Assembly: GCA_018062965.1 (NCBI GenBank)
Contig: JAGORG010000002.1
Coordinates: forward strand, 65,860 to 120,199
From: Minisyncoccota bacterium
Lineage (GTDB): Bacteria > Patescibacteriota > Minisyncoccia > Phycocordibacterales > UBA5272
DNA length: 54,340 nt
Direction: 5' to 3'
This document shows, in pieces, positions 51,109 to 54,340 of this stretch. Position 1 is the stretch's first letter; the number at the start of each line of letters is the position of its first letter. A model generated the notes under the pieces. That model saw only the letters and a list, made by a program, of their open reading frames with translations. It was not told the DNA's origin and did not search any database. The translations under genes and the position numbers were made by a program.

Positions 51109-51226
51109 TTGTTCTCCCGACAGGCTACTTTCCCGGCATTGCCAGTATCATCGCCGCACAAGAGCTTAACTTCTCTGTTCGAAATGGGAAGAGGTGTGAC
51201 CCCCTGGCTAAATCAGGAGAACAAAA
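51109..51226 (-). rRNA. rrf: 5S ribosomal RNA
   Basis: Conserved loop sequences CCCATTTCGAACAGAGAAGTTAAGC are present (in two parts: CCCATTTCGAACAG and GAAGTTAAGC), and the ends TTTGTTCTCC and GGGAGAACAAA form helix I. Length about 118. Confidence 0.95.
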
Positions 51227-51251: not shown

Positions 51252-51435
51252 TGGTGGGGCTGATTGGTTTCGAACCAACAACCTCTGCTGTGTCGCCCTG
51301 TAAGTCCTTTCCTTCCTCCAACTTGTCGTTAGCAGTCCCTAGAGCGTGAGCTCTAGGCAAAGGTTGCAGTCAACCGCCTTGGCAGTGTGACAACTTAAGG
51401 AGCAAGCAGCGCTCTCCTCTTTGAGCTACAGCCCC
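51252..51435 (-). ncRNA. Ala-like tRNA body with a 115-base 16S-like insert in place of the anticodon loop
   Basis: On the minus strand a tRNA frame is complete apart from the anticodon loop: acceptor GGGGCTG/CAGCCCC, D arm GCTC/GAGC, anticodon stem CTGCT/AGCAG (51405-51409 and 51285-51289), variable AGGTT, T loop TTCGAAA, then ACCA. The 115 bases between the anticodon strands are not a group I intron that I can recognise, and no splice restores U33 with a sensible anticodon. They contain GGGACTGC, GACAA and GGAGGAAGG in the order and spacing of 16S helices 39-40 (51311-51357), with the h40 stem changed on both strands, and looser similarity to the sequence before and after. The acceptor lacks the G3-U70 pair needed for alanine identity. 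Confidence 0.7.
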
Positions 51436-51469
51436 ATCATATACTTTTTCTAAAAAGAACCACAGTCTT

Positions 51470-51587
51470 TGGTCGGGGTGAACAGATTTGAACTGCCGAC
51501 CTTCCCTTAACAACCACCGTCCGCATTACCGCGGCTGCAGGAGCAGGACAGTGATCAGGACGCGCTACCAGACTGCGCTACACCCCG
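51470..51587 (-). ncRNA. Pro-like tRNA body with a 16S helix-18 (530-loop)-like insert
   Basis: Acceptor CGGGGTG/CACCCCG with A73 and CCA, D arm GCGC/GCGC with the Pro-typical TGTAGCGCAG start, variable AGGTC and T loop TTCAAAT form a tRNA-Pro-like body. The anticodon strands TCCT and AGGGA enclose a 39-base hairpin (51515-51553): an 8-bp stem CACTGTCC/GGACGGTG capped by a loop containing GCAGCCGCGGTAAT (51525-51538), the universal 16S 530-loop sequence, followed by CGGA. No splice I tried produces a Pro anticodon. Confidence 0.7.
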
Positions 51588-51620
51588 ACACGCAAAAGAA
51601 TACACACATGAAAGTTTTCC

Positions 51621-51692
51621 TGTGGTGCGAGGAAGTCAAATTGTAAGCGATGAATTGCTCCATATCAAACTCTTCAACCTCCTCGCACCACA
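51621..51692 (-). ncRNA. stem-loop carrying a 16S 5'-end-like segment
   Basis: A 13-bp perfect stem (TGTGGTGCGAGGA, 51680-51692, with its complement at 51621-51633) encloses a 46-base loop. The loop begins with TTGAAGAGTTTGAT (51664-51677), identical to the start of bacterial 16S rRNA, followed by ATGG and then a weaker match around ATTNANCGCT. It lies between the 23S 3' end and the Pro-like element; it may also be an RNase III processing stem. Confidence 0.6.
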
Positions 51693-51708
51693 CGAAAGAA
51701 TCAACACT

Positions 51709-51729: not shown

Positions 51730-51943
51730 TGTTTCCTAATAGGATTCGGGTACTTAGTATGTCTCGGCTACACACATTACTGTGCTTACACCTAACACCT
51801 ATCAACGTGATAATCTCTCACGACCCTTCAACGAATACTTATCTTGAAGTTGGCTTCGTTCTTAGATGCTTTCAGAACTTATCCATTCCCGACATAGCTA
51901 CTGGGCGGTCCAGCTGGCGCTAGAGCCCACACACCAGAGGTCA

Positions 51944-51974
<31 letters not shown>

Positions 51975-52120
51975 ATCTTTTCAATATTCGAACGCCTGCA
52001 GAAGATAGGAAACCAACCTGTCTCACGACGGTTTGAACCCAGCTCACGTATCTTTTTAAATGGCGAACAGCCATACCCTTGGTAGCTTCTCCACCACCAG
52101 GATAAGATGAGCCGACATCG

Positions 52121-52489
52121 CTGTCGTATTTGTCTTGTATTACTACAAGGATCGGACTATATCTTCATCCACCCGATCAAAGGTGGCGTTGGCGTATTAA
52201 CTATGAGTTCTTCTCATAATTCCATCACATTGTTTGTTTGGATACTCTCCGTGCAAACGTGATAAGTCTCTACAGGGTTATATGAATAATCACAATGTTA
52301 CTTGTGCAGCTCTCCATTTCAAATGGAGTGATCGCTTTCTTATTCATAAACTTCCCACGGTATTGCCCTTGCGTTGTTCATGCGCATGGGTTTCACCGTT
52401 ATAAGCCAAGAATTTCTTTGTACATATTATTTATTGACGATTGTACATATGTTGCTACAGGATTACTCCTGACGCACCCCGATATGTTA
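52121..52489 (-). other. group I intron in 23S rRNA (about E. coli position 2500)
   Basis: A 369-base insert splits GGCACCU^CGAUGUCGG in the peptidyl-transferase centre. The exon GCACCU pairs with an internal guide GGGTGC (52474-52479), giving the U-G wobble required at the 5' splice site, and the insert ends in G. The conserved core is visible: GGGCAAT-type Q, GTAGAGACTT (R) and AAGATATAGTCC (S). No homing-endonuclease ORF. Removal restores the normal 23S sequence exactly. Confidence 0.88.
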
Positions 52490-53061
52490 AGGTGCCGAAC
52501 TGTGCCGTCGATATGAACTCTTAGGCACAACTAGCCTGTTATCCCCGTGGTAGCTTCTATCCGTTAATCTGCACCCGCATCTAAAGCGAAGTGTAGGTTC
52601 ACTAGGACCCACTTTCGTGTCTGCTCGACATGCCCGTCTTACAGTCAAGCCATCTTATGCCCTTACGCTATCGGCACGGTTTCCATTCGCGCCTAGATGA
52701 CCTTAATATACTCCTCCGTTACCTTTTAGGAGGAAACCGCCCCAGTTAAACTCCCCACCAGATACTGTCTGCGAACGTTTTTTCCGTTCACGTTAGCAAG
52801 TGCCCAATTACAGATGACTGTTTCATTGTTGAGTAGAGTACAACCGAAATCATACACATCAAACCTCTCGTCACTACACTACGCAGTAATTGAACAATTG
52901 CAATACCAAGCTAGAGTAAAGCTCACGGGGTCTTTTCGTCTATCTGCAGGTAACCGGCATCTTCACCGGTACTGTATTTTCACCGAGCTACTCCCTGAGA
53001 CAGTTCCCCAGTCGTTACGCCATTCGTGCACGTCTGAACTTACCAGACAAGGAATTTCGCT

Positions 53062-53292
<231 letters not shown>

Positions 53293-53446
53293 GACGGGGG
53301 CTTATATCATCCAGCTCCGAAGAACCGCCGATATTTAACCTTCCCGCATTGGTCAGGCGTCACCTCCTATACATCCACTTACGTGTTCGCAGGAAGCTGT
53401 GTTTTTGGTAAACAGTCGCTAGGGAAACTTTCGCTGCGGCCCCCAT

Positions 53447-53573
53447 CACTTTATTTTCAAAAGCGATGTTGGTCATAGAGAATCATTTCCATCACACTAT
53501 TTGTCTCAATTCATTTTATCTAATTCTCTAGAACCCACACATTTGTTTAAAAACAAAGTGATGGGGGCAGGCC
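53447..53573 (-). other. expanded helix 63 of 23S rRNA
   Basis: CCCCCATCACTTTGTTTT-type and AAAATAAAGTGATGGGGG-type strands (near 53555-53572 and 53443-53460) form a stem that closes about 90 AU-rich bases where E. coli has helix 63. It looks like an rRNA expansion, not an intron, because the closing strands pair and there is no intron core. Confidence 0.6.
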
Positions 53574-54340
53574 TTATCGCTAACTTACGGCCGCTTTTTT
53601 GCCTAGTTCCTTAGGGAGATATCACTCGTTCGCCTTAGTCTACTCGACTCGAATACCTGTGTCGGTTTGCGGTACGGATTAATAGTAACTTAAGCATCTT
53701 CTTGTACCTAGATGATCTAGACACAAGCAAGCTTGTACCTAGTAAAAGGCACAAGAAGACGTTCTGTATTCACAGAATGTAGAGACTTTTCTCGGAGGCG
53801 TGCTTTATACAGTTGAATCAGGTTGCCCATCATCTTCATACGACACTTGGACTGATGAAGTACGGATTTCCCTGTACCTCGTCCTTATGCAATAAACGAC
53901 AATCCAATAAGTCGCTGTATATACTACACCCCGTCATCCCATCACATTACTACCAAGCTACTGAATATTAACAGTATGTCCATCGGATCCGGCGTTTGCC
54001 ATCTCCTTAGGCCCGGCTAACCCTACTCTGACAATCATTGAATAGGAAACCTTATTCTTTCGGCGGGAAGGGATCTCACCTTCCTTGCGGTTACTTGTGC
54101 CAACATTCTTACTTCCACACGCTCCAGCATGGGTCACCCCTTTGCCTTCAACGCAGAGTGGAACACTCTCCTACCGCTCATGCATAAGCATAAGCCCTCA
54201 GTTTCGGTGATAGATTTGAGTCCCGATTATTTGTGGCGCAGAGTCTCTCGATGGGTGAGCTGTTACGCTTTCTTTCAATGATGGCTGCTTCTAAGCCAAC
54301 ATCCTCATTGTCAATGAAACTCCACCTCCTCGCTTACACT

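Follow-up and report, generated by a model that had tools for sequence, protein, structure and literature searches.

What lies between the 23S and 5S rRNA genes at this locus, and why do parts of it resemble 16S rRNA? The window, by which we mean the whole 54,340-nucleotide stretch analysed here, is the end of one contig (C1) of a 646-kb genome rated 100% complete, assembled in ten contigs with a gap at the rRNA operon of the window; a complete, full-length 16S gene is found on another contig (C3). On the minus strand, the spacer contains a long hairpin and two tRNA-like genes (Table 1). A sequence-only reading of this DNA had described three 16S-like segments in the spacer, and had proposed a natural tRNA-scaffolded RNA that mimics parts of 16S, to be checked by alignment to 16S covariance models, by a search for the same spacer in relatives and by a test for compensatory changes. 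Its coordinates, segment order and orientation are correct when checked on the sequence, and the likeness itself holds for the second and third segments (p 5e-6 and E 3.8e-6, respectively) but not for the first (p 0.19 against the genome's own 16S), so that the description of three segments in 16S order is unsafe. For the other two, the proposal is supported by an independent 16S model, by relatives and by covariation, as set out below, and we hold with high confidence that the spacer encodes tRNA bodies carrying 16S-like inserts.

Table 1. Features of the 23S-5S spacer and its flanks, in rRNA-sense order (positions in the window)
Feature	Position	Strand	Evidence
23S rRNA gene, cut by contig end (context)	51733..54340	-	RF02541 1324.7 bits
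Hairpin 1, long stem with internal loop; 14-mer resembling 16S 5' end at 51664-51677	51619..51694	-	fold z -8.0
Chimera 1, tRNA-Pro-like body (C1:G72, encoded CCA), anticodon arm replaced by 16S h18/530-loop-like hairpin	51470..51587	-	RF00005 43.6 bits, 52-nt insert; arms fully paired
Chimera 1 5' half: acceptor, D arm, start of anticodon stem	51557..51587	-	
h18/530-loop-like hairpin, GCAGCCGCGGTAAT at 51525-51538	51515..51553	-	24/27 to E. coli 16S 518-544
Chimera 1 3' half: anticodon stem 3', T arm, acceptor 3', ACCA	51470..51507	-	
Chimera 2, tRNA body (encoded CCA), anticodon arm bearing 115-nt 16S h35-h40-like domain	51252..51435	-	acceptor 7/7, D 4/4, anticodon stem 5/5, T 5/5; fold z -2.85
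Chimera 2 5' half: acceptor, D arm, anticodon stem 5'	51405..51435	-	arms paired
16S h35-h40-like domain	51302..51395	-	16S-only covariance model R2, 34 bits, E 3.8e-6
h36/37-like hairpin	51369..51393	-	R2 alignment, fold
h39-like hairpin	51338..51358	-	R2 alignment, fold
h40-like hairpin, 16S-invariant flanks GACTGC...GACAA...GGAGGAAGG	51311..51337	-	covariation in 7 homologues; motif 21-23/26 among own, G009, G015
Chimera 2 3' half: anticodon stem 3', T arm, acceptor 3', ACCA	51252..51289	-	
5S rRNA gene (context)	51112..51220	-	RF00001 64.8 bits

Hairpin 1 is a real, conserved structure that probably serves as an rRNA-processing stem. It is kept in three congeners (G009, G004 and G007), in which its 16S-like letters show one change (G009) or do not match (G004 and G007). 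The segment in question, TTGAAGAGTTTGAT, is exact only against E. coli 16S (p 6e-5), and chance is a fair explanation because E. coli was the reference picked. With a poor match to the genome's own 16S and letters that change in congeners, the interpretation of this hairpin as a 16S 5' end is not upheld, and its likeness to 16S is probably accidental.

The two tRNA-like genes are a different matter. Both bodies have all 7/7 acceptor, 4/4 D and 5/5 T pairs and encode ACCA, and neither has a decoding-competent 7-nucleotide anticodon loop, since a 16S-like insert stands in the anticodon arm; ARAGORN, run without introns, found no tRNA at either chimera. The gathering threshold of RF00005, which recognises the body of chimera 1, is 29. 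The h18-like segment in this chimera gives Gumbel p values of 5e-6 against E. coli 16S, 6e-4 against a second canonical 16S and 7e-3 against the genome's own 16S, and has no match in the 16S of two other Patescibacteria. As read from the sequence, the insert has no GGC partner strand upstream for the 505-507/524-526 pseudoknot of the 530 loop, and this imitation of h18 was found in this genome only.

In a scan of all Rfam families, the full-length SSU model gave no match to the window chimeras at E<=10, and we therefore built a domain-level covariance model (R2). Its training set was the h35-h40 region of 12 genuine 16S genes, drawn from many phyla, and included no chimera. Across the window, R2 has a single match, the insert of chimera 2, in which h36, h38, h39 and h40 are aligned, so that the likeness of the third segment extends beyond short motifs. 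R2 also recognises the homologues described below (L085, 62.5 bits; G886, 46.0; L086, 40.5; G015, 37.4; L096, 28.0), is marginal for G009 (16.6 bits, E 0.09) and misses the G005 copy; on 42 control loci, mostly 5S and 16S loci of relatives, it matched real 16S and nothing else. The insert of L085 is also found by the full-length Rfam SSU model, at model positions 1052-1185 (E 1.9e-6).

A spacer search across 197 relatives identified homologous spacers within the genus only, matches in other genera being ordinary tRNA stretches. Chimeras are carried by three congeners and by three other Patescibacteria (L085, L086 and L096). Among the congeners, the 23S-5S spacers of G009 (Ca. Nomurabacteria isolate CullarsAll.DT.22) and G015 each contain a tRNA bearing an h40-type insert, and G005 has a decayed version of this chimera. 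The spacers of G004 and G007 contain plain tRNAs (Lys- and Trp-like), that of G012 two tRNA-like genes with odd loops, and that of G002 no tRNA, while G013 has a tRNA-Pro-like gene (L056:1230-1301 and upstream) in which an unrelated insert of ~45 nt occupies the D loop, not the anticodon arm. Outside the genus, L085 is labelled as Patescibacteria and L086 and L096 only as 'bacterium'; L086 and L096 group as relatives, and a gene neighbouring the rRNA is common to L086 and the window genome, as read from the sequences. The chimeras of L086 and L096 lie just 3' of 5S, and that of L085 between pyrG-like and gyrA-like genes. We also noted a D-loop insert in L086, in addition to its h40 insert, and a reverse-transcriptase-like gene in L085 (L085:664-1797), 2 kb from the tRNA/16S chimera.

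To place this distribution in a wider frame, the exact h40 plus T loop pattern was scanned in one genome per species across 84,980 species; the pattern covers h40, the frequency of other 16S domains mounted likewise being outside its reach. It occurs in 13 places. Five are genuine tRNA frames, confined to this genus and to genomes of Patescibacterial appearance; the other eight, outside these tRNAs, are chance matches. An order-level scan of 397 genomes found the pattern in three, all of this genus, and its reversed control in none, and a loose first look at 379 genomes of the phylum besides our own, with few candidates scored per genome, yielded no tRNA-borne copy. Viral contigs contained no h40 chimera, and a single viral match to the h18 pattern sits in phage coding sequence and was dismissed as chance. 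A tRNA-Pro-like gene after the 5S of G775 (L152/L140), with an anticodon arm reading GCCGCC UACAA GGCGG AGG like a bare 16S h40, scores within the tRNA background and was likewise set aside. In G886, a relative of L085, an h40 copy that matches E. coli 16S at 33/35 positions lies ~330 nt after the 16S 3' end, within a 227-nt spacer element that is closed by a 13-bp stem and has no tRNA. The unit that recurs is thus the 16S h38-h39-h40 junction, located within or close to rRNA spacers and mounted on a closing helix that is in most cases a tRNA body, and tRNA pairing is complete in all eight chimeras with the exception of one D stem.

The h40 part of this unit has been conserved well beyond its surroundings. 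The congeners have 16S genes that are ~94% identical, and the 26-base h40 motif of their inserts is identical at 21-23/26 positions (16-20 when the decayed G005 copy is compared), the rest of the insert being at or near random similarity. Across the h40 and T stems of seven chimeras, some of them related and three found through these same letters, 97% of pairs are kept, with a covariation score of 0.60 versus 0.26 in shuffled alignments and 11 double changes versus 3.3 in shuffles, and pairing collapses when the strands are slid. The conserved letters are those that are invariant in 16S. The motif looks selected, and this favours a 16S-like structure having been maintained, although seven sequences are a small set.

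Recent copying from the genome's own 16S can be ruled out as the source of the inserts, because that gene differs in both mimicked regions. The 16S genes of the genus that were examined (L002, L075, L076, L077, L078, L079, L080 and L083) have variable, often AT-rich hairpin expansions in h40, and genus 16S has GCAGCAGCGG in h18, whereas the inserts have a short canonical h40 and GCAGCCGCGG. In G407, the genome of L096, the 16S h40 loop reads UCAC instead of GACAA. The sequence-only reading had also considered a relic of an rRNA rearrangement; for the own 16S this is not supported, since that gene is intact and it is precisely in the mimicked regions that it differs from the inserts. The inserts may stem from an ancient branch or may have been acquired from another bacterium.

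The reading we prefer, with a probability of roughly 0.38, is that of a two-module chimeric RNA, in which the tRNA body serves as a processing module and the insert as a surrogate site for a 30S protein or assembly factor. It builds on the anatomy, the 16S likeness, its recurrence, the conservation of h40 and the dispensability for decoding in a sister genome discussed below; excision, stability, protein binding and purpose would be as follows. The body would derive from tRNA genes inside the rRNA operon that no longer decode and were kept as a cutting and stabilising handle. From established tRNA biology, RNase P would cut at the 5' end of each body and ordinary tRNA 3' maturation would proceed to CCA, and their excision would also part 23S from 5S. 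In place of the anticodon arm, each body would have acquired a mimic of part of 16S: h18 in chimera 1, and h35-h40, with its h38-h39-h40 three-way junction, in chimera 2. Freed from pre-rRNA in step with ribosomes, the RNA could then present this domain as a surrogate binding site that holds or delivers the protein normally recognising it, such as an S2/S3/S9/S10-type head protein or an assembly factor; S2, S3, S9, S10 and S14 touch the mimicked head region. What the domain does is a guess: if it keeps a protein-binding site, the RNA may serve such a protein as a decoy, store or delivery device. The decoy or store of the sequence-only reading is a reasonable proposal, which selection on the h40 motif fits but does not prove. 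Spacer-tRNA identity differs from congener to congener (Lys-, Trp- and odd-loop forms), which would follow if it is the body that matters rather than the anticodon, and several spacer tRNAs of the genus have unusable loops, which fits a processing role for the body. Counting against the two-module reading, the domain is rare and has been lost or has decayed in several congeners (G002, G004, G007 and G005). The restriction of the h18 imitation to this genome, its missing pseudoknot partner and the lack of a full-length SSU match for the window chimeras weigh on the same side.

Could the inserts instead be introns, spliced out to restore a functional tRNA-Pro and tRNA-Ala? They do stand in the anticodon arm, the site of tRNA introns, and L085 can be read as a tRNA-Pro(TGG) interrupted by an intron at position 38. 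Furthermore, no tRNA-Ala gene was found in the 646-kb assembly of the window genome, nor in the neighbourhood matching the Ala gene of G009, although this absence is likely an assembly gap. (A neighbour gene from the tRNA-Ala region of G009 maps to the start of our contig C2.) Against splicing, no group I intron (RF00028) match was found up to E 10 in the window chimeras or the L096 elements, predicted splicing would yield tRNAs that make no sense, Arg(GCG) and Asn(GTT) for the window chimeras and others elsewhere, and the Ala-like body in the window lacks G3:U70. The nearly whole genome of G009 has an ordinary tRNA set that includes Ala(TGC) and Pro(TGG) elsewhere, so the chimeras are not needed for decoding, and the window genome likewise has a Pro gene elsewhere in its assembly. 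We therefore consider intron-bearing decoding tRNAs very unlikely. It is just as improbable, in our view, that the chimeras act in trans as pieces of rRNA, equipping ribosomes that have an altered h40 with a canonical one (and with h18): all genus 16S examined have the expanded h40 and the G407 loop is changed, but G004, G007 and G012 have an equally expanded h40 without a chimera, and the own 16S is full length. Lower still we place chance resemblance or an assembly artefact. The motifs are short, and several pattern matches outside tRNAs are indeed chance, but recurrence in the same spacer of separately assembled congeners, the E value of the R2 match and the full pairing of all tRNA arms have largely refuted this explanation.

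The main rival is a tolerated relic, neutral or nearly so, which we regard as a tentative but serious possibility. Here, tRNA-like spacer punctuation would tolerate folded inserts in the anticodon arm, and canonical 16S stretches, perhaps foreign, would have been captured by recombination or template switching and would now be decaying. The patchy presence of the chimeras and the decayed G005 copy fit such a history, as do the unrelated inserts in the D loop of G013 and on contig C10 of the window genome, the closer likeness of the inserts to canonical bacterial 16S than to the own 16S, and the tRNA-free h40 copy in the G886 spacer, nearly identical to that of E. coli. Against it, h40 letters and pairs have outlasted a full turnover of the remaining insert within the genus, with compensatory changes, and the same domain occurs in separate lineages, though a scan with an h40 pattern is blind to other 16S pieces.

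Among known systems, tRNA genes in the spacer or distal part of rRNA operons share the location, the cloverleaf body and the encoded CCA, and G145 of the same order has an ordinary 23S-tRNA-Pro-5S arrangement; in the chimeras, by contrast, the anticodon arm is a 16S domain and no decoding is possible. The 16S models recover h36, h38, h39, h40 and invariant letters of the 3' major domain (h35-h40) of bacterial SSU rRNA, but here the domain is isolated, ~95-135 nt long, separate from the 16S gene and carried by the anticodon stem of a tRNA; the window elements include separate segments and no full-length SSU rRNA gene. Like tmRNA, the chimeras have tRNA-like ends and a long insert replacing the anticodon arm, but they keep a full D arm and anticodon stem, and tests of the window element for tmRNA gave nothing with ARAGORN and only 12.8 bits, to permuted tmRNA. 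Leaders of ribosomal-protein operons that mimic rRNA for autoregulation are RNAs outside rRNA imitating a 16S protein-binding site; unlike these, the chimeras are not upstream of ribosomal-protein genes and lie inside the rRNA operon on a tRNA body. Artificial tRNA scaffolds for RNA production also hold an insert on the tRNA anticodon stem, whereas the chimeras are natural and recurrent. Group I introns in tRNAs of Patescibacteria, described in a preprint as cited in PMC12641178, share the phylum and the insertion into tRNA genes, but the chimeras have no group I signature. Each of tmRNA, tRNA introns, ordinary spacer tRNAs and ribosomal-protein leader mimics differs from the chimera by a defining feature, and in the open papers searched no natural tRNA bearing an rRNA domain is described.

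In a natural RNA that mounts an rRNA domain on a tRNA body, two classes of RNA that are otherwise separate come together. The set of ribosome biogenesis factors in Patescibacteria is about half as large as usual (PMC12641178). In the strongest form of the two-module reading, which we think rather unlikely, some of these bacteria would cut from the rRNA precursor stable small RNAs of a new class, each with a 16S domain on a tRNA chassis. Such an RNA would be dedicated to a small-subunit protein or assembly factor, as its decoy, store or chaperone, and would compensate for the reduced assembly-factor set. If true, RNAs that hold or present 30S proteins would be a new way of ribosome assembly. 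Even if neutral, the chimeras would show that an rRNA domain can enter a tRNA gene and survive there as a folded module, a point relevant to recombination between rRNA and tRNA fragments.

Several further observations concern the rRNA genes and tRNA-like RNAs of these genomes. The 16S and 23S genes of G009 are on separate large contigs (C5 and C11), and rRNA genes are therefore probably unlinked in the genus. The G012 assembly contains a second, canonical rRNA operon (G012:C26, L074), probably contamination. The own 16S (G000:C3:1462-3020, L002) terminates in ...GTGGATTAATTCAATG and is without the CCTCC anti-Shine-Dalgarno sequence. Contig C10 of the window genome (C10:38634-38802, L066) encodes another long tRNA-like RNA of 169 nt (27 bits), whose D-arm hairpin is extended and whose long insert shows no 16S similarity. 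Finally, a group I intron (53.7 bits) lies inside the 23S gene of the window, at positions 52133-52499.
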